Shown here in pieces: positions 1 to 8,561 of a DNA stretch of 45,244 bases. Within the stretch, counting starts at the first letter, position 1, and each line of letters begins with the position of its first letter. A program made the position numbers and the translations under genes. Location of the stretch: contig NZ_QYUP01000107.1 in assembly GCF_003590855.1 (NCBI RefSeq), positions 1 through 45,244 on the forward strand. The letters run 5' to 3'. The stretch is from Massilia cavernae. Its GTDB lineage: Bacteria > Pseudomonadota > Gammaproteobacteria > Burkholderiales > Burkholderiaceae_D. The notes below the pieces were generated by a model. That model was not told the origin of the DNA. It made no database searches and saw only the letters and a program-made list of their open reading frames with translations.

Positions 1-514
1 CTGGACAAACATCAAGCGCCTCCTGAATGCGCGCGCCAGTGTTATACAGGAAGGACAGCAGGGCATGGTCACGCTGCCCCTCGATGCACGTTCGATCAGG
101 CTGGGCCAGAATTGCCGCCACCTCATTCGATTCGAGATAGCATGGGGCGGGTATGGGAGCCTTCTTTGTCGGGATGCGCAGCACATCGGCACACTGCGCG
201 GCAGCAGGCGGCTCTCGCTCCGCCACGAAAGAGAAGAAGCTGCGCAACGCAGCGAGCCGGCAGTTGCGTGTGCCGATCGAGACATGGCGTTCTTGCTCGC
301 TATGTTTCAGAAAGGCAGTCACGTCGTCGGCGGTAAGTTCAGCCAGGATGAGCTGCGCCACGGTCCGTTTGTGACAGGCGGCGGTATGACGCAGAAACAA
401 CCGCCACGTGTCGCGGTAGGATCGAACCGTATTGACGGAGACATTACGTTGCTCGACCAGTCGTTCGTAAAAGAAGGCGCGCAGCAATCCTGGTAATGGA
501 TCGATCGGTCTCAT
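1..514 (-). CDS. Tyrosine recombinase, third gene of RIT trio (N-terminal part; runs off window)
   Basis: This is an open frame of 171 codons from an ATG at 514 to the window edge with no stop. The ATG shares one base with the stop of the preceding recombinase (TGATG), so the two are translationally coupled. The translation has a SAM-like core-binding N-terminal domain (a motif SVNTVRSYRDTWRLFLRH near residues 26-43). It reaches the start of the catalytic domain, with the first catalytic arginine in YNTGARIQEAL near residue 160. The lysine, HxxR, histidine and tyrosine of the active site would lie beyond the window. In RIT elements the third recombinase is normally complete; nothing here suggests otherwise. 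Confidence 0.85.
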   Translation of the reverse strand, partial: MRPIDPLPGLLRAFFYERLVEQRNVSVNTVRSYRDTWRLFLRHTAACHKRTVAQLILAELTADDVTAFLKHSEQERHVSIGTRNCRLAALRSFFSFVAEREPPAAAQCADVLRIPTKKAPIPAPCYLESNEVAAILAQPDRTCIEGQRDHALLSFLYNTGARIQEALDVCP

Positions 515-1884
515 CACCGTTCTCCTTCATCTGCATGCAGGTTGTGCGCTCCGAAAGCACGGAACCGCCCACTCGCCTGCTGCAGCAGTTCTTGCGTGAT
601 CGTCAGGTAAACCAGCGTCGAGTTGATGTCCTTGTGACCCAGATAGGTGGCGAGGTAAGGCAGCCGCGTTTGAGGATTGATTCCTTCGCGGTACCATGTG
701 AGCATTCGGTTGACGACGAAGGCGTGCCGAAGATCGTGGATACGCGGTCCTACGCGTCCCGTTTCAGGCTTCATGCCGGCGAAACGCAGCACGCGAACCA
801 GCAGCTTCTCGGTCATCACATGTGAGTAGCGTCCCGCATGTTGTTCGTGCCAGAACAGTCCGGACGAGCCATGCTGTGGTGCCCCAGCCATCCGCCTCGC
901 GTCAAGGTATTCGCCAAGTGCGGCAAGAGCGCTGTGGGTCAGTGGCAGCGTTCTCGATTTGAAGAACTTGGTGTCGCGAATGGCGATCTCGCCGTCTTTC
1001 AGATTGACGTCACCCAGATCTAGGTGCACGATTTCACTGACCCGGAGTCCAGCGCAATAGGCAAGAACAAGCATCGTGTATAGCGTGAGTGGGCGGAGCG
1101 TCGCGCGCGGGGACGGAAACTGGAGGGCGACATCCAGCAGATGTCGGATTTCTTCCGGGGTGTAGATGTACGGCTGCCGCCGCTGCCGTTCGACCTGACA
1201 TTTCAGACGCCGATCCGGACTGGGCATGACAATGGTCGGATCGACACGACGCCAAGCTTTGGCGAGATTGCGCCCGAGTTCATCGCATTCCCATGCATGT
1301 TCGAGTGTGGGGTTCGCGATTGCCCATTGCCGCAACAAGATCGCCAGTGGCTGCCCTGTCAAATCCAATCGCCCTTGAAGGAACCGATCAAAGCGCAGAA
1401 AGCGCGCCGCTTGCGTGTCATAGCGCTCGCCGAGCGCTTGCATGAGTTCAATGTGATGGCGCATGAGATCACCAAGGAAACTTGCGAAATGCGGCTGTGG
1501 ACGTAGCATTTCGAGCGCCTCTTCGGGCTTGGGCGCCAGCAGCGCCCGAACAACCGGCATTGACGTTCGCTGGCCGTAGCGGACTCTAAGTTGAAACAGA
1601 GGGTTGGCTGGAATCGTCCCCTCGTTCGCGAGGAAATCAAGGAACCGGTCGACGATGCGTGTTCGATGGAGCACAAGATGCATCGGCCATTGCGTTGCAC
1701 GATCATGCAGCCATGCTTCTATTGTCAGTTGCCTTACCGGGGATTCACATTTGTGCTTGATGACGAAGCGCTGAAAGCCGACGAGAATGCATCGGTAAAC
1801 AATGATAGTGCGAGGGCGGCGCACTTGTAGTTGCTGTAAATGACGATTGATGCTGTCATCATCTGTGCCTGGCCAGGTTCTCAT
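514..1884 (-). CDS. Tyrosine recombinase, second gene of RIT trio
   Basis: This is a 456-residue site-specific recombinase of the phage-integrase/XerCD type. The C-terminal half carries the whole catalytic set: Arg in YCAGLRVSEIV, Lys in DTKFFKSRTLPL, the HDLRHAF box, YLGHKDINST and the nucleophile Tyr in TLVYLTI. I place the start at the ATG at 1884, which overlaps the stop of the first recombinase as ATGA; an ATG at 1899 would add five residues. It follows the first recombinase directly and is followed by a third, so the three are probably made from one mRNA. In RIT elements the proteins are thought to act together in moving the element; the role of each is not established. Confidence 0.9.
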   Translation of the reverse strand: MRTWPGTDDDSINRHLQQLQVRRPRTIIVYRCILVGFQRFVIKHKCESPVRQLTIEAWLHDRATQWPMHLVLHRTRIVDRFLDFLANEGTIPANPLFQLRVRYGQRTSMPVVRALLAPKPEEALEMLRPQPHFASFLGDLMRHHIELMQALGERYDTQAARFLRFDRFLQGRLDLTGQPLAILLRQWAIANPTLEHAWECDELGRNLAKAWRRVDPTIVMPSPDRRLKCQVERQRRQPYIYTPEEIRHLLDVALQFPSPRATLRPLTLYTMLVLAYCAGLRVSEIVHLDLGDVNLKDGEIAIRDTKFFKSRTLPLTHSALAALGEYLDARRMAGAPQHGSSGLFWHEQHAGRYSHVMTEKLLVRVLRFAGMKPETGRVGPRIHDLRHAFVVNRMLTWYREGINPQTRLPYLATYLGHKDINSTLVYLTITQELLQQASGRFRAFGAHNLHADEGER

Positions 1885-3131
1885 GAACGATTCTCCCATC
1901 CGGGTATTTCCAAGGCCACGGCACGTAAATCTGCAGTGGCGAGCTTGAGGTATGCTCTTGTTGAGAGCGATGATCGATGTCCCAACAGGTCGCCAATAAT
2001 CTTCGGCGACACTGCGGCACGAAGCAGACTAATGGCGCGTGCGTGTCGGAACGTATGCGGCCCCCGTTTGCCGGCCGGCTGCACACCGGCCTCTTCTAGC
2101 CGGTCGCGGATCACCGAATAAAGACTGGATCCGCTGCTAAAGCCTTGGTAGGGAGCCCAGGCGCGGATGAATATTTCACGGGTATCCGTTTTTGGGCGCG
2201 CTCGCAAATATGCAAGCAGCGCCTCTCCTACGGCAGGCAACAGCGGCAAGACCGTTTGGGCATTGGTCTTGGTATGGCGCACCAAGACCGTGTCGGTACG
2301 CCAATCGATATCGTCCAACCGAAGATGCGTGACTTCTCCTGCGCGCAGTCCGTACGCCGACAGAATCGTCAAGATGGCATAGTCGCGCAGTCCTTTCGAT
2401 GAACGATCCTTGCCGGTCGTATTCAGGACAGTGCTTATTTCGTCTGGACGCAACACCGAGGGAATTCCCTCGTCGGCATAGATTGTCGGAGCAAGTACGC
2501 AAGACGCGAAATTGCGGGTGGTTCTGCCCGTGGCATGCGCAAAGCGCATGAAGCAGCGCAAGCGCTGCGAGACGCCCTTGCGCGTAACGCGTCGTAATGA
2601 AGGGGCTCGGACTCGAAGGTAGTCATCGATGTCGTCGACGGTCATTTCAGACAGACTATCGGTGTGTGTGCGCTCCGCATACCAAGTCAGGAATCGCTTC
2701 CCTTCGGCGAAAAGGTCGCCGGTCGTTTCTGCTGCCAGCCCGCGCACTTCACGGAGCCATCGCGCAAATTCCGTCAGAATTTGCGCGAAAGCGTCACTTG
2801 TACAAGTCGCCAAATCACTGGGCGGCCACGTCCCTCTGACGAATCGTAGAAAATGGTTGATGCCGCTGGTGTGCGAGGAGCGCCAACTATCAAAGGTTAT
2901 TGGCGCATGGCCATGGTTGCGACCGAAGCGCTTCAATTCACATTTCACGTACATCGTTACGTGCAACGGTTGCGCGGATTCGACAAGGATGGCTCGCTTC
3001 TTCAAATAACGAAGGAACTTGCCGGCGACTGCAAGGTAGCGCTCCACGTGAACTGAGCTATATCTTTCTTTCGCCAGGTGTTCCGCGAATTGCGCCAGCA
3101 GTTTCGCGTGACTCGATTGATGATCCGACAT
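1881..3131 (-). CDS. Tyrosine recombinase, first gene of RIT trio
   Basis: This is a 416-residue tyrosine recombinase and the first gene of the three-gene unit. An N-terminal helical region is followed by a SAM-like core-binding domain and a catalytic domain with all expected residues: Arg in SAYGLRAGEV, Lys in RHTKTNAQT, HTFRHARA, LLGHRSS and the Tyr nucleophile in STRAYLKLA. The stop overlaps the start of the next recombinase by four bases. Upstream lie a small inverted repeat (3141-3167) and the element's terminal inverted repeat (3182-3250), so its promoter probably lies within about 120 bp of the element's end. Base composition is visibly less GC-rich than the chromosomal genes further right. 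Confidence 0.9.
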   Translation of the reverse strand: MSDHQSSHAKLLAQFAEHLAKERYSSVHVERYLAVAGKFLRYLKKRAILVESAQPLHVTMYVKCELKRFGRNHGHAPITFDSWRSSHTSGINHFLRFVRGTWPPSDLATCTSDAFAQILTEFARWLREVRGLAAETTGDLFAEGKRFLTWYAERTHTDSLSEMTVDDIDDYLRVRAPSLRRVTRKGVSQRLRCFMRFAHATGRTTRNFASCVLAPTIYADEGIPSVLRPDEISTVLNTTGKDRSSKGLRDYAILTILSAYGLRAGEVTHLRLDDIDWRTDTVLVRHTKTNAQTVLPLLPAVGEALLAYLRARPKTDTREIFIRAWAPYQGFSSGSSLYSVIRDRLEEAGVQPAGKRGPHTFRHARAISLLRAAVSPKIIGDLLGHRSSLSTRAYLKLATADLRAVALEIPGWENRS

Positions 3132-3140
3132 GATGTGTCC

Positions 3141-3167
3141 CCTTGGACAGTTGATCGTCTTCCAAGG
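3141..3167. promoter_or_regulatory. 7-bp inverted repeat upstream of the recombinase trio
   Basis: CCTTGGA (3141-3147) and TCCAAGG (3161-3167) form a perfect inverted repeat with a 13-nt spacer, about 10 bp upstream of the first recombinase ATG on the minus strand. It could be an operator or an mRNA hairpin affecting translation. No function is known to me. Confidence 0.35.
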
Positions 3168-3181
3168 ATTGCACTCTCAAA

Positions 3182-3250
3182 AATAATGTGAAGGAGAATC
3201 GCCGTCAACGCCGGTCAGGCAAGGCAAGATTGGGACTCCTTCACATTATT
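3182..3250. repeat. 15-bp inverted repeat at the right end of the RIT element
   Basis: AATAATGTGAAGGAG at 3182-3196 is repeated as its exact reverse complement at 3236-3250, with 39 bp between. No open frame crosses it. The recombinases begin about 50 bp to its left and a broken istA coding frame begins about 16 bp to its right. It is therefore a candidate recombination site at the element's end, where tyrosine recombinases would bind the two arms. Confidence 0.7.
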
Positions 3251-3265
3251 CGGTCCTGCTGATAA

Positions 3266-4186
3266 CCGCAGCTGATCGTGCCGGACAATCCAAAGGCGAT
3301 GATCACCGACGCCAACCGCTACGAACCGCGCAGCAACGACACGGTGCTCGACTTCGCGCGCCACTACGGCACTTCAATCCTGCCGGCCCGTCCGCGCCAC
3401 CCGCAAGACAAGGCCAAGGCCGAATCGGCGGTGCAGATCGTCGAGCGCTGGATCATGGCGCGCCTGCGTCACCAGCAGTTCGACAGCGTGCACGAGGTCA
3501 ATCAGGCTATGGCGCCGTTGCTCACACGGCTCAACGAAAAGCTGTTCCAGAAACTGCCAGGCAGCCGCGCCAGCACCTTCGCCGAGATCGATGCACCAGC
3601 CTTGCTACCGCTGCCGCTACAGCGTTACGAGATGGCGCACTTCAAGACGGTCAAGGTGCACATCGACTACCACGTCGAGGTCGAGCGCCACCGCTACAGC
3701 GTACCGCACTCGCTGGTCGGGCAGGTGCTCGAGGCACGTATCACGACCGCAGTGGTGGAGCTGATGCATAGGGGACAGCGCGTCGCCAGCCATGCCCGCA
3801 ACAGCCGCCAAGGCGGCTTCACCACGACGACCACGCACATGCCTGCCGCGCATCGCGCTCACATGGAGTGGACGCCGACGCGGCTGATCCACTGGGGGAA
3901 AAGCATCGGCCCGGCGACGGCCGAGGCGGTGACGCGGCTGATGGCCGAGAACAAGCATCCGGAGCATGGCTACCGCGCCTGCCTTGGCCTGCTGTCGCTG
4001 GCTAAGCGCTACGGCAAGGTACGGCTTGAGGCGGCGTGCATGCTGGCCCTGCAGATCGGCGCCTGCCAGTACCGCCACGTACGCGACATCCTTACCAACA
4101 ACCGCGACCAGAGCGCGCCGACCACCGCTGGCGATTGGGTTAGCCCCGACCATGTCCATGTCCGCGGACCTGGCTACTACCAATGA
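3266..4186 (+). pseudogene. istA: IS21-family transposase IstA, C-terminal part (5' truncated)
   Basis: Homology to IstA starts abruptly at 3266 (PQLIVPDNPKAMITDANRY) in mid-protein. About 306 codons remain, where full IstA is about 500. The helix-turn-helix N-terminus and the first catalytic Asp are gone. The part kept includes VPDN, with a probable second Asp, and PQDKAKAESAVQIVERW, with the catalytic Glu, followed by the C-terminal DNA-binding region typical of the family. A GTG at 3278 could in principle start translation, but the product would lack the complete DDE site. The break coincides with the RIT terminal repeat, so insertion of the RIT element is the likely cause. Confidence 0.85.
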
Positions 4187-4965
4187 GGAATGACGAGATG
4201 ATGATGCACACAACCTTGGCGCAACTGCGCTCACTGAAACTGGACGGCCTGGCGGCCGGCCTGGAAGAACAACTGGCACAACCTGGCATGGCCGCGTTGA
4301 GCTTCGAAGAACGCGTGGCGTTGTTGATCGACCGCGAGGTCCACGCACGCAACGACCGCAAGCTGGTGCGGCTGCTGAAGAACGCGCACCTCAAGTACGG
4401 GCAAGCTGCAATTGAAGATATCGATGCAAGATCAGGGCGCGGCATCGACCGCCGCGAGGTGATGAGCCTTGCCCTGGGCGAGTGGGTCAGCGCTGGTCAC
4501 AGTGTCCTGATCACCGGCCCCACCGGCGCCGGCAAGTCGTGGCTGGCCTGCGCGCTGGCGCAGTACGCCTGCCGACGTGGCTACAGCGCGTTCTACCAGC
4601 GTGTACCCCGCTTGCAGGAAGAACTGCGCATCCGGCACGGCAGCGGTGCCTTCGGCAAATGGCTGCTCCAACTGGCCAAGCCTGATGTCCTTGTGCTGGA
4701 CGACTGGGCAATGGGCTCGATCGACAGCATGACGCGTTCCGATCTGCTCGAGATCATTGACGACCGGGCCGGCAGCAAAGCGACGATCATCACCAGTCAG
4801 CTGCCGGTCGAACACTGGCATGCCTGGATCGGCGACGCCACCATCGCCGACGCCATCTTGGACCGCGTCATGCAGCGCAACCATCGCTTCACGCTGACCG
4901 GGGACTCGCTGCGTGCCCAGCGACCTAAAAACACTAAAAAGGAGAAAAATATCGACCTATCGTGA
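4183..4965 (+). CDS. istB: IS21-family helper ATPase IstB
   Basis: This 260-residue AAA+ ATPase is the transposition helper of IS21 elements; it regulates target choice and stimulates IstA. Walker A is GPTGAGKS near residue 105 and a Walker B-like LVLDDWA lies near residue 170. The start at 4183 overlaps the istA stop (ATGA); an ATG at 4198, about 9 bases after a GAGGA ribosome-binding site, would give a product five residues shorter with better spacing. The gene looks intact, but its partner istA is truncated, so the element is probably immobile unless a complete relative acts in trans. Confidence 0.9.
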   Translation: MRNDEMMMHTTLAQLRSLKLDGLAAGLEEQLAQPGMAALSFEERVALLIDREVHARNDRKLVRLLKNAHLKYGQAAIEDIDARSGRGIDRREVMSLALGEWVSAGHSVLITGPTGAGKSWLACALAQYACRRGYSAFYQRVPRLQEELRIRHGSGAFGKWLLQLAKPDVLVLDDWAMGSIDSMTRSDLLEIIDDRAGSKATIITSQLPVEHWHAWIGDATIADAILDRVMQRNHRFTLTGDSLRAQRPKNTKKEKNIDLS

Positions 4966-5052
4966 CCGCAGCCCTTACAATTTGAACGCGTAACATCATC
5001 GAATGCGCAGCGGTCACGATAGACCGGAATCAGCGGTCACGTTGACCGGAAT
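4957..5052. repeat. IS21-type terminal repeats
   Basis: The motif CAGCGGTCACG..GACCGGAAT occurs twice in tandem (5008-5030 and 5031-5052). Its first part is also present inverted at 4957-4969 (CTATCGTGACCGC against GCGGTCACGATAG at 5010-5022). IS21 elements carry several copies of their transposase-binding repeat at each end, which fits. The istB stop lies inside the inverted copy. Confidence 0.7.
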
Positions 5053-5057
5053 ACGCA

Positions 5058-5948
5058 ATATTCCGCTGGCTCGCGAAGTTCGCCGAGGGTGGTCAGAATG
5101 CCCTTCTGGCCAAACCGATCCCAGGTCGTCCGCCGAAGGTCAGTGCCGAAGAAATGCGCTGGATCGCGCAGGCGGTAAAGGACAATACTCCCCAACAGTT
5201 CAAGTTTGAATTTGGCCTGTGGACCTTGTCGCTGTTGCGCGAATTGATCAACCGCGAGTTCGGCAAATCCTTGTCGCTCGAATCCGTTAGGCGCGTCATG
5301 AAGTTGCTCGGCTTCTCGACTCAGAAGCCGCTTTATCAAGCGTGGCAGCAAGATCCCGTGCTGGTCAAACAGTGGGAAAGCGAAACCTATCCGGCCATCA
5401 AAGCGGAAGCGCAGGCTGCTGGCGCCACGATCTATTTCGCCGACGAGGCTGGTATTCGATCCGACTACCACACTGGCACGACTTGGGCACCGATTGGTGA
5501 AACGCCCGTGGTCGCCGTGACCGGGCGTCGCTTTTCCTTCAACATGATTTCTGCCGTGAGCCCACGTGGCGATATTCAATTCATGATTCATGAAGGTCCC
5601 GTGAACGCCCCGGTATTCAAAGAATTCCTCAAGCGCCTGATGATCGGTGCAACCAAGCCGGTCTTTGTCGTTGTCGATGGGCATTCGATTCATAAAGCCA
5701 AGCTGATCAAGGACTATGTCGACAGCCTCAAGGGCAATCTCAAGTTGTTCTACCTGCCGCCGTACTCGCCACACCTGAATCCGGACGAGCAAGTATGGGC
5801 TCACGTGAAGCGCCAAGTCAGCAAGCAATTCGTGCAATCCAAGGACGACATGAAAAAGCTCGCTATCGGCGCGCTACGGCGCCTTCAGAAATTGCCAGCA
5901 CTGGTCAAATCGTTCTTCAGGCAACCCGAGTGCCAGTATGCCGGCTAA
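5058..5948 (+). pseudogene. IS630-family transposase, 5' truncated
   Basis: The coding frame is continuous from about 5058 to the stop at 5948 (about 296 codons) but begins inside the N-terminal helix-turn-helix (FRWLAKFAEGGQNALLAKP). The family is normally about 340 residues. The DDE_3 catalytic domain is complete: Asp in IYFADEAGIRSDYH, Asp in VVVDGHSIHKAK and Glu in PPYSPHLNPDEQVW. An ATG at 5154 could start a 264-residue product lacking most of the DNA-binding domain. The missing 5' end coincides with the right end of the IS21 element, so IS21 insertion into this gene is the likely cause. Confidence 0.85.
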
Positions 5949-5976
5949 TTGCTTTACTTTCTAGAAGGTTAGTAAT

Positions 5977-6321
5977 TTGTACCAGGGCCGCATGCAGATC
6001 GAGCAGACGTTCCGCGACCTCAAAAGCTCCCAATGGGGAATGGGGCTCAGCAGCAGCCAAACACGCAAGCCACATCGACTCACCATCTTGTTGCTCATCG
6101 CATCGCTGCTTGCGTTCGCGCTGTGGCTGATCGGCTTGGCCGTACGCCGCAACGGGTTCGCTGTTCACTATGGCAGTCGCAAGAAAGCGGCTGCCACCCT
6201 ATCCATCCTGTCGCTAGCGCGCCACTGGCTGCAATATCACAGCTCGGCACTCTTAACGCGACGTCAAATCGCCGAAGCGTTGAACGAGCTCGGGTCCATG
6301 CTCGAGACGTACGAAATATGA
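5977..6321 (+). pseudogene. IS4/IS10-type transposase, C-terminal fragment
   Basis: About 114 codons match the C-terminal end of Tn10/IS10-like transposases. They begin with the YREK box (YQGRMQIEQTFRDLK), which holds the catalytic Glu, and continue through the hydrophobic LLLIASLLAFALWLIG helix to the stop at 6321. The preceding ~290 residues with the two catalytic Asp are absent; instead the 3' end of the IS630 gene lies immediately upstream. The remnant cannot be active. Confidence 0.85.
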
Positions 6322-6334
6322 GGGGAAGGCTCAG
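6314..6334 (+). repeat. IS10-type right terminal inverted repeat
   Basis: The 21 bp read AAATATGAGGGGA...TCAG, matching the outward end of IS4/IS10-group elements (CTGA...TCCCCT...ATTT, reverse-complemented). It overlaps the last codons of the transposase fragment. This fixes the boundary between the insertion sequence and the interrupted gene at 6334/6335. Confidence 0.7.
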
Positions 6335-7222
6335 GGGCGGCCCCCTCTTCAGTTCCCCTGCAGAAGATGGCTCCGCCTGCTTGAAAATGACACCGCATTC
6401 TTGCGCGTATTCCTGAACTGCTTGCGTCACTCGGTCAATCACGATTTGATAGAACAAACATATTCCGAGCAGATCGTCGGGAGTGAACCTGATGTGGTCG
6501 CCGAGAGCAAACTTCCTCTCCACGATCTCAATTTTTGCAAGCACCCTTCCTTCCGGGCCATTGGGGTCAAGCTCAATAGGAAACTCTACCGCGTCCAGAT
6601 CTATTGCCTTGTCGCCTTGCTCAATCAGCGTGCGTATGGCAAGCCAGCGCACCGCAAGTTCACCATTAGTAGCGCGCTTCTGCGTCACAATGCCCAAGTC
6701 GTGGGACAGGCAATTCCTTGCCATGCTCAGCGAGACGAGGCAGTCTTGATCCCCAATGTGCGGGTGTATAAATCTCTTCGCCACTTCGAGAACAAGCTTG
6801 TGTTTGTCCGCGACATTGGTCTGCCTATCAATCCGCTTCCACTGATGATGCGCCGGATTCTCGCCAGATACCAATTTCGCCTGCTGTACCATGTCATACG
6901 CCACATCCAAATAGAGGCTGAGAAACTGATCTAGCTCCCGCAGGGCATTTCCGATGATCCAAGCTCTCCAGTTCTCGCGCAGTTCGGGGACATGCTCATC
7001 GGGGAAGGGATCGGGAAGGAACTGCCGTTTGATGCTTCGACCGAGTGTCAGCGAGCTAGGAAATTCCCCCTCCAAGAGGCGCTCTGATAAACCGAGAAAA
7101 GCGGCGGCACGGCGCACGCCAACGCATGCTCGCTCCCGCATCGCATTCAAATCAAACCTAAGCACTCGCTCGACACGTTTCGTTTCGTTTCGCTCATAAT
7201 TCTGTATCCCTACGACAAGCAA
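6335..7222 (-). pseudogene. HEPN-like protein of unknown family, 3' end replaced by an insertion sequence
   Basis: The frame opens at a TTG at 7222 (first in-frame ATG at 7141) and about 296 codons are native before the IS10-type end at 6334. It then runs on for about 80 meaningless codons antisense to the transposase. I do not recognise the family with certainty. Residues 169-174 read RNCLSH within SMARNCLSHDLG, an RNxxxH motif as in HEPN ribonucleases. It lies in a helical, Trp/Leu-rich context (NWRAWIIGNALRELDQFLSLYLD). HEPN proteins are often RNases of toxin or phage-defence systems. The neighbour is an Mrr-like nuclease on the same strand, 159 bp upstream, which suggests a defence locus. 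Loss of the native C-terminus may have inactivated it. Confidence 0.55.
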
Positions 7223-7381: not shown

Positions 7382-8341
7382 TCACGCCAAAATCTCAAAG
7401 AATGGATTTTTATCAACGATGGCTGCTTGTGACTTCTTTTTAAGCAGCGCAACCAGATCACCTTGCCGTTGAAGCAGCATCACGAACTCCTGCAACGAGC
7501 ACAGGAAGATCGTCTTGAGGTTCAGTGCGTTCTTGCATTCGGTAACCACGGACTCCGTGTAGCCGTTCGTCGCAATGAAGATACCGTGTGCGTTCGCCCG
7601 CATGAACAGGCGGCTGAGATGGGGTGAGAATTCACCCATGCCTACTGGGGCGTTGAGCCACTTCATTTCGACCAGATGAATGGCTCCATCGAGCTCGATC
7701 ACCCCATCAATTTGCTCTAGGACTGTGCCCGAGTCGGGGTCTTTACGGCGAAAGTCTTCGCGGATGTGGATGCCATATGCCTTGAACAGATCGTTCAGCA
7801 CGACTTCAAGCAGCTTTCCCCGCGCCTGGGGCTTGTCGTCCATCGCGAACAAGGAGAAGAGCCGCTTGCTCACACCTTCGATTCTGGCGCGCTTCGCGGC
7901 TGCCGCTGCCTGCTCGTCACGCTGACGTGCAAGCACCTGCTCTCGCTCGGCGTCGCGCTCTTGCTTCATGCGCGTGAAGGAATCTTTTACGTTGACCGTC
8001 TTGCTTAACTCAGAGACAAGTCCCTTGGCCTTGAGTCGGTCGCTGTCCCAGCAGGTGTCGAAGTTATCGAATTCGGTGACGCGCTTGATGATCTCGCGGC
8101 GCGGGCGAAGCCCACTATCGCCCCGCGCATTCACTTTCGTGAGCACGTTACGTACGATCTCGTATTTGTTGATGGCGCTGCGGTCGGTCCGGACGGTGCG
8201 GGAGACTTCTGCGAGATCGTCTTGGGCGACCCCAGCACCCTGAAGGAACAGAACAACGTCTTGCTTGCTCCGGCAGAGGAGCGGGATCGTATCCACCAGC
8301 AGATTGAACACCTCGGGAGGATAGTGAAAGTGCTCTGCCAT
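7382..8341 (-). CDS. Mrr-like restriction endonuclease (PD-(D/E)XK)
   Basis: This 319-residue protein has three parts. The first, residues 1-110, is helical and unassigned (VFNLLVDTIPLLCRSKQDVV...). A charged coiled-coil-like stretch rich in Arg, Glu and Ala follows at about 120-155 (KQERDAEREQVLARQRDEQ). A C-terminal Mrr-type nuclease domain follows from about 165. The nuclease core is visible as GKLLEVVLNDLF, then QIDGVIELDG with the catalytic Asp, and LVEMKW with the E-x-K pair, then FIATNGYTESV. Mrr-family enzymes cut modified or foreign DNA, so a defence role is likely. The N-terminal part may sense or oligomerise. It lies between the HEPN-like gene and tRNA-Ser, all on the minus strand. 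Confidence 0.75.
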   Translation of the reverse strand: MAEHFHYPPEVFNLLVDTIPLLCRSKQDVVLFLQGAGVAQDDLAEVSRTVRTDRSAINKYEIVRNVLTKVNARGDSGLRPRREIIKRVTEFDNFDTCWDSDRLKAKGLVSELSKTVNVKDSFTRMKQERDAEREQVLARQRDEQAAAAAKRARIEGVSKRLFSLFAMDDKPQARGKLLEVVLNDLFKAYGIHIREDFRRKDPDSGTVLEQIDGVIELDGAIHLVEMKWLNAPVGMGEFSPHLSRLFMRANAHGIFIATNGYTESVVTECKNALNLKTIFLCSLQEFVMLLQRQGDLVALLKKKSQAAIVDKNPFFEILA

Positions 8342-8471: not shown

Positions 8472-8561
8472 TGGCGGAAGCGGTGAGATTCGAACTCACG
8501 AACAGTTTAACCCGTCGCCAGTTTTCAAGACTGGTGCCTTCAACCACTCGGCCACGCTTCC
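8472..8561 (-). tRNA. tRNA-Ser (anticodon UGA)
   Basis: On the minus strand the acceptor stem GGAAGCG (8555-8561) pairs with CGCTTCC near the 3' end. The anticodon loop CTTGAAA gives anticodon UGA (Ser, UCA codons). There is a long variable arm as in class II tRNAs, the TTCGAAT T-loop is present and CCA is encoded (8472-8474). The gene is 90 nt long. Its 3' end points toward the mobile and defence region at 1-8341, the usual geometry of a tRNA used as an integration site. Confidence 0.95.

Follow-up and report, generated by a model that had tools for sequence, protein, structure and literature searches.

A stack of insertion elements at a contig end in Massilia cavernae, and a RIT element whose position in istA looks like site choice

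In the parts of four papers that deal with their structure and location, recombinase-in-trio (RIT) elements are described as three adjacent, overlapping tyrosine recombinase genes bounded by terminal inverted repeats, and are recorded in radC (C. metallidurans, B. petrii), in tnpA of IS66 and in the transposase gene of a Tn6049-related transposon (PMC3414803, PMC10214605, PMC8138268, PMC2864759). One of these papers describes an inverted repeat with an overlapping palindrome at the RIT edge (PMC3414803), and in Table 1 of another, target specificity is given for RITs as lacking a formal experimental test (PMC10214605). Here we consider a RIT at the left end of contig NZ_QYUP01000107.1 of Massilia cavernae, the whole of which (45,244 bp; C10 in our numbering) was analyzed and is called the window; the assembly comes to 5.44 Mb across 201 contigs, and the left edge of the window is a contig end. 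That end is a stack of insertions, in which the extreme end of an accessory gene holds an IS4-family insertion sequence (IS), this holds an IS630 element, the IS630 an IS21 element, and the istA gene of the IS21 the RIT. The class of gene that RITs split looks as if it follows RitB phylogeny, and the place of this RIT in istA looks like site choice. Our preferred reading, to which we give a probability of about 0.65, is an insertion stack in which the RIT entered istA by site-specific recombination, and which was later rearranged or suffered a deletion at the level of the IS630 element.

The RIT consists of three consecutive, overlapping tyrosine recombinase genes, all on the minus strand. RitB (514..1899; PF00589, E = 1e-18; 64% to RitB of plasmid pBN2) and RitA (1881..3131; PF00589, E = 1.6e-24) are whole, and RitC, the third recombinase (2..517), is an open reading frame (ORF) cut by the contig end, with its remainder on contig C52. 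Residues R263, K288, H359, R362, H385 and Y394 of RitA, which we take to be the catalytic set, are invariant across five sequences. The terminal inverted repeat on the RitA side (3181..3265) is bare, that is, without a palindrome, and forms with the other end in C52 a perfect inverted repeat of 91 bp, 6 bp of it spacer. Only the one end lies in the window; the RIT of C52 has both and is 3854 bp, against the roughly 3.5 kb expected. The spacer CCGCAG (3266..3271), which also occupies all three spacer positions in C52, joins the RIT to the 3' half of istA (3272..4186, plus strand), whose first residues are LIVPDN. This half covers positions 183-293 of 294 in the NCBIfam IS21 transposase profile, also matches PF22483, and scores 120.4 bits with the former, below the whole-protein cut-off of 160 as expected of a half. 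Beside it lie istB, for the helper ATPase (4183..4965, plus strand; PF01695, E = 6.5e-65; NF038214), and the right terminal repeat of the IS21 (5010..5057), 88% to the other-end repeats of the C52 copy, so that IstA (as its 3' half), IstB and terminal repeats of an IS21 are all present.

Each of the four joints in the order RIT, IS21, IS630 and IS4-type, as read in the initial annotation, is confirmed against copies in the same genome. The joints were set to the base by comparison with the other copies, using C52 for the IS21, contig C26 for the IS630 and ten two-ended copies for the IS4-type element, and the IS21 boundary draws on both C52 and C26. Two of the annotated positions hold (5057 for the IS21 and 6334 for the outermost element), the RIT joint moves from 3250 to 3265, and that of the IS630 from about 5976 to 5972. 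The IS21 right end, reading GGAATACGCA, is at 5057, and the IS630 3' part continues from 5058 (5058..5972, plus strand), with transposase at 5058-5948 (NF033545, E = 2.6e-69, profile 29-297 of 299) and the right end, GGTTAG, closing at 5972. Across the IS21 joint, the copy on C26 continues uninterrupted (GACG-ATATTC-CGC). The IS630 end is followed by its TA target (5973..5974), which lies within the IS4-type element and is uninterrupted as GGTTGTTAATTTG in 10 of the 10 copies listed. The right part of that element (5973..6334, plus strand; positions 977 to 1338 of its 1338 bp, the TA being at 977) is 98.7-99.5% to the ten copies and ends in AGGGGAAGGCTCAG.

The istA gene appears to be cut at a preferred spot. 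Judged by profile positions (a MAFFT alignment misplaced the short 5' halves of loci L077 and L079), the istA 3' half of the window starts at 183, and the 5' half in a C. taiwanensis plasmid ends at 179 of 294; in that plasmid the RitC side of a RIT, with its palindrome, directly follows the istA 5' half, which ends GGVPE. In pBN2, the closest plasmid RIT among those found (RitB 64%), the RIT sits between two istA 3' halves of different IS21s (57% and 41% to one reference IstA), in each of which the cut precedes (L/V)LVPDN, and pBN2 aligns to window positions 8-4026 in one piece, through the RIT/istA joint. Insertion at the VPDN site is found in the window, in C52, in L050 (two halves) and in L079. 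The VPDN motif presumably carries a catalytic aspartate of the DDE transposase. In the RitB tree, the four istA-split RITs (those of the window, pBN2, the C. taiwanensis plasmid and L077) fall on one side of a branch supported at 100/99.

A similar regularity is seen beyond istA. We compared 27 plasmid RIT loci (10 of the 25 rows listed from 969 records, 16 of the 60 rows listed from 100 records, and H98), 25 of which could be given a class of split gene: nine ArdC-type zincins, six IS110 transposases, six sno-type helicases, three istA and one IS5. Eighteen of these classes are based on a match of a half to Pfam or NCBIfam, several of them below the whole-protein cut-off as fragments, and seven (L054, L055, L057, L068, L072, L073 and L076) on the motif and, for some, the annotation of the record. 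Among the 23 RITs with both ends (22 from plasmids, and C52), the motif of the class stands at the joint on 45 of 46 sides, 44 of them in frame 0 of the called end, a count made with motifs written after viewing the same flanks and without a random-site control; the other side, the bare side of L051, reads LRALNDDK. The target frame was taken from the motif, as a mechanical choice of the longest frame missed it in some loci. IS110 genes are cut after YV(K/R)(P/A)(Y/F)V(K/R) and before a DxxDAEA stretch, which we assume to carry catalytic residues; ArdC-type genes after Y(L/I/V)xxWL or Y(L/I/V)xWL and before (V/I)Lxx(D/E)(K/N); and sno genes after YA(D/G)A(W/F/Y) and before IIHxN(L/M). When the four larger classes are mapped onto the RitB tree, three changes are needed, the minimum, while shuffled labels need 12.8 on average and none of 200 shuffles was as low, a result to which near copies contribute; taken singly, sno, IS110 and istA require one change each. 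L069 was called IS110 by eye before the tree was made and later confirmed, and L077 was unlabelled in it. As side observations, the bare side of the RIT in L074 (7970-8194) faces the 3' half of an IS5-family transposase gene, its other end not having been found, and in L068, L072 and L076 a second trio of adjacent recombinase genes is annotated near the RIT, in or beside a sno-type helicase gene.

The palindrome is on the RitA side alone in 10 of the 23 two-ended RITs, on the RitC side alone in nine, on both sides in two and on neither in two. It abuts the 5' half of the target, and the bare end the 3' half, on all 45 sides having a motif, with the palindrome scored at a cut-off of 12 of 20 that was lowered from 14 after viewing the data (control windows reach 12 in 2.8% and 14 in 0.55% of cases). 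The RITs with a palindrome on both sides or neither look like products of flank exchange between two target copies. Taking targets and ends together, we incline slightly toward the view that RITs are a site-specific family, each lineage of which recognizes a single conserved motif within a single gene family, mostly of mobile elements or plasmids (istA, IS110 and IS5 transposases, ArdC-type zincins, sno-type helicases). Such elements would leave a 20-bp palindrome where the 5' half of the split gene ends, and could either be inverted where they stand or swap flanks between two target copies.

Several observations weigh against this reading and against our reading of the window. The sampling of RITs was non-random, and near copies were skipped, yet some remain (L058 and L063 have identical RitB; L054/L055 and L068/L070/L072 are close). 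Two loci have no class, L062 because its flank has no family and L053 because no end repeat was found and it was dropped, and for L054 and L055 the halves matched nothing in Pfam. By itself the ArdC class needs three changes, and it does not form a single clade. L077, a Caballeronia RIT, has an istA 5' half on either side, the two being cut at profile positions 113 and 115, a different site, and is on a long branch of the RitB tree where its placement is unsure. The spacers all match one another in C52 and often differ in other RITs, with within-RIT mismatch means of 1.9 to 2.2 of 6, so that insertion does not generally leave a clean 6-bp duplication; spacers shuffled between loci give means of 3.6 to 3.8 of 6, none of 2000 shuffles being as low, a shuffle that also mixes target classes. 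The 91-bp repeat at the RIT ends could falsely flip orientation in C10 or C52. Finally, in an assembly of 201 contigs repeats may be collapsed or misjoined, and three of the assembly searches, among them those for the left parts of the RIT and istA, scored part of their candidates.

Searches with RitA (E ≤ 1e-60, against 294 genomes of the family) and RitB (E ≤ 1e-90, against 399 genomes of the order), both genome sets being samples of larger groups, returned this genome alone. Pattern-based scans of genome contigs and viral contigs for relatives of RitA and RitB confirmed none, and RIT/target joint patterns had no matches in viral contigs. Within this genome, a search with the bare RIT arm recovered the three ends already known plus a site on contig C172, a count close to that of a reversed control.

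On our preferred reading, the RIT lineage would recombine site-specifically into a single position of istA, immediately ahead of the (L/V)(I/L)VPDN codons, which would be why the RIT of the window is in istA. If insertion uses a 6-bp crossover and the nearly identical RIT ends, the RIT would be found in either orientation. The copy on C52 bears on this. Its IS21 has both ends, measures 6468 bp including the RIT, and has its own 6-bp repeat, CCGAAC, on both sides; its RIT is at the same istA base as in the window, flipped, with the RitC side meeting the istA 3' half where the RitA side does so in the window. Between the two copies the RIT parts are identical over 3271 bp, and in the IS21 parts there are differences at 3 of 1877 positions. 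(RitC of the C52 RIT is split over two reading frames, L009 5264-5929 and 4920-5267.) Because the same base is used in an IS21 with its own 6-bp repeat, either IS21::RIT moved as a unit or the RIT entered this site twice, and the two copies fit either movement followed by inversion or two entries.

That IS21::RIT moved as one composite, the RIT never having entered this locus alone, is an alternative that we place a little short of even odds. The common base and the separate repeat of the C52 copy speak for it. The flipped orientation of the RIT relative to istA, its perfect match to the other copy over 3271 bp when the IS21 parts show differences, and the lack of an intact close istA among the scored candidates (the nearest being relatives at 68-70%) speak for two entries instead, and a site-specific element would be expected to enter one site repeatedly.

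The IS630 bears on what became of the left halves. All 25 candidates for IS630 5' parts were scored, and three contigs have one: C26 and C147, both two-ended (C26 interrupted; the C147 copy is 1103 bp), and C3. Compared with the window, the C26 copy has 2 mismatches in the 535 positions ahead of its own insertion and none in the 391 behind it; that insertion (L010 4567-6355), which measures about 1.8 kb and overlaps by 8 bp at the window equivalent of 5585-5592, may be IS66-type. C3 has the single orphan IS630 5' half, and its first base is the base before the IS630 half of the window, so that the two are exactly complementary. The outer flank of the C3 half is AT-rich DNA rather than an IS4-type element, and C3 carries genes that by their sequences resemble miaA and mutL. 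Six of 15 relatives have neighbors of the C3 half and of the window on one contig, and there the two are about 0.8 to 3.3 Mb apart, taking the short way round an assumed circle: at 2.82 and 7.03 Mb in genome G148, 0.65 and 6.82 in G203, 2.83 and 0.25 in G170, 4.16 and 4.99 in G028, 2.77 and 0.03 in G018, and 0.79 and 2.03 in G026.

It is possible, with the odds somewhat against it, that homologous recombination between two IS630 copies (or two copies of IS21::RIT) joined the C3 region to the C10 region, making this an IS-mediated large rearrangement. The complementary halves with different outer flanks are what such an event would leave, and the mismatched 9-bp repeats of an IS4-type copy on contig C173 (below) could reflect flank exchange among IS4-type copies, or a misjoin there. 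A deletion next to the IS630, or two separate composites, would look alike. A simple mirror nest seems unlikely and is, in our judgment, unproven and disfavored. It would require four insertions, with the left halves intact beyond the contig end and lost to repeat collapse onto C52, C26 and other IS4-type copies. The window does break off within a RIT that matches the C52 copy at every one of 3271 bp, the kind of place at which an assembly limited by repeats would end, and C3 starts exactly at the IS21 joint. The initial annotation, having read the nest off its right-hand joints, correctly as far as those go, predicted left halves in mirror order if every event was a simple insertion. In the rest of the assembly these are not seen: the flank of C3 is not IS4-type, none of 11 IS4-type left ends (all 35 candidates scored) has GGGCGGCCC beside it, the C3 and C10 regions are not neighbors in relatives, and the far end of the RIT and the 5' part of istA were found on C52 alone, with 40 of 130 and 40 of 65 candidates scored. 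Because of the flank, the missing IS4-type partner and the lack of synteny, a rearrangement or deletion at the IS630 level is favored, not proved; were it to have occurred, the missing left halves would not lie beyond it in mirror order. An assembly artifact at the left edge, in which the RIT or its orientation is a wrong walk through the identical 91-bp ends of the RIT inside which the contig stops, is improbable, as both orientations are common (nine and nine of 22 two-ended plasmid RITs) and pBN2 aligns unbroken across the same joint.

The outermost element was called IS10-type in the initial annotation. The full transposase of the copy on contig C56 assigns it to the IS4 family (NF033591, E = 2.9e-82, 276.5 bits, cut-off 152), and the IS10 subgroup is a label of that annotation alone. 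The ten two-ended copies are 1337-1340 bp, and nine have matching 9-bp repeats of the form GGNCNGNCC; a sequence in the corresponding position in the window, GGGCGGCCC (6335..6343), is presumably the target repeat, its left partner not found. The tenth, on C173 (L021), has unlike repeats, GGTCTGTCC on one side and GGTCAGACC on the other, which points to a misjoin or to copies having exchanged with one another. Two copies are one-ended: C21 has the right end, and C156 the left, next to a different 9-bp repeat, GGTCTGTCC, on account of which we rejected C156 as the partner of the window's half in a simple insertion. Several copies (L013-L019, L028) lie within GGTCTGACC-like sequences that recur close together between genes.

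The gene that receives the stack (6344..7222, minus strand), labeled HEPN-like, does run open into the IS4-type element. To say that it breaks there overstates the case, the loss being at most a few codons and the stop. It has one match besides itself in the 294 family genomes, 24-25% identical (G264/L049), and this homologue terminates level with about residue 290 of the 293 in the window, so the insertion is at or just before the natural end of the gene. The HEPN label is unconfirmed: the protein has no match in Pfam, NCBIfam or PADLOC, the structure model has a mean predicted local distance difference test score of 44.6, and the sole HEPN-type feature is an Rx4H motif common to the protein and its one homologue. 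The gene has no match among the plasmids or phages searched. Beyond it, a 319-residue ORF (7382-8341) has no Pfam or PADLOC match, and a tRNA gene (8475-8561, minus strand; RF00005) lies between accessory genes and regulator genes.

As mobile-DNA clutter at the end of a contig the nest is unremarkable, and the regularity of the RITs, a family that is little understood, is the part that deserves follow-up. If the pattern holds, RITs would gain a concrete rule for their targets, a laboratory assay would have defined sites to work with, and it would explain the recurrence of RITs inside transposase and plasmid genes. A 2013 survey by Ricker, which we know by title, is said to cover RIT phylogeny and organization, and the target rule may already be in print there.

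Set beside known systems, the IS4-type element has the transposase, inverted ends and 9-bp repeats of its family (NF033591), the repeats of this genome reading GGNCNGNCC. The IS630 is alike in its transposase and TA target, and is interrupted by the IS21 here and by another insertion in C26. The IS21 has the istA, istB, terminal repeats and 6-bp target repeat (C52) of its family, with istA split by a RIT in both copies. The elements called SEs and GInts, and Tn554, as characterized in PMC10214605 and likened here by description alone, resemble RITs in having several recombinases, target specificity and a 6-bp spacer or footprint, and differ in their gene sets. Described RITs share with those analyzed here the trio of genes, the terminal repeats, the edge palindrome and insertion in genes of mobile elements; compared with the RITs in the literature, the class of split gene here appears to follow RIT phylogeny, with the cut at one conserved motif.

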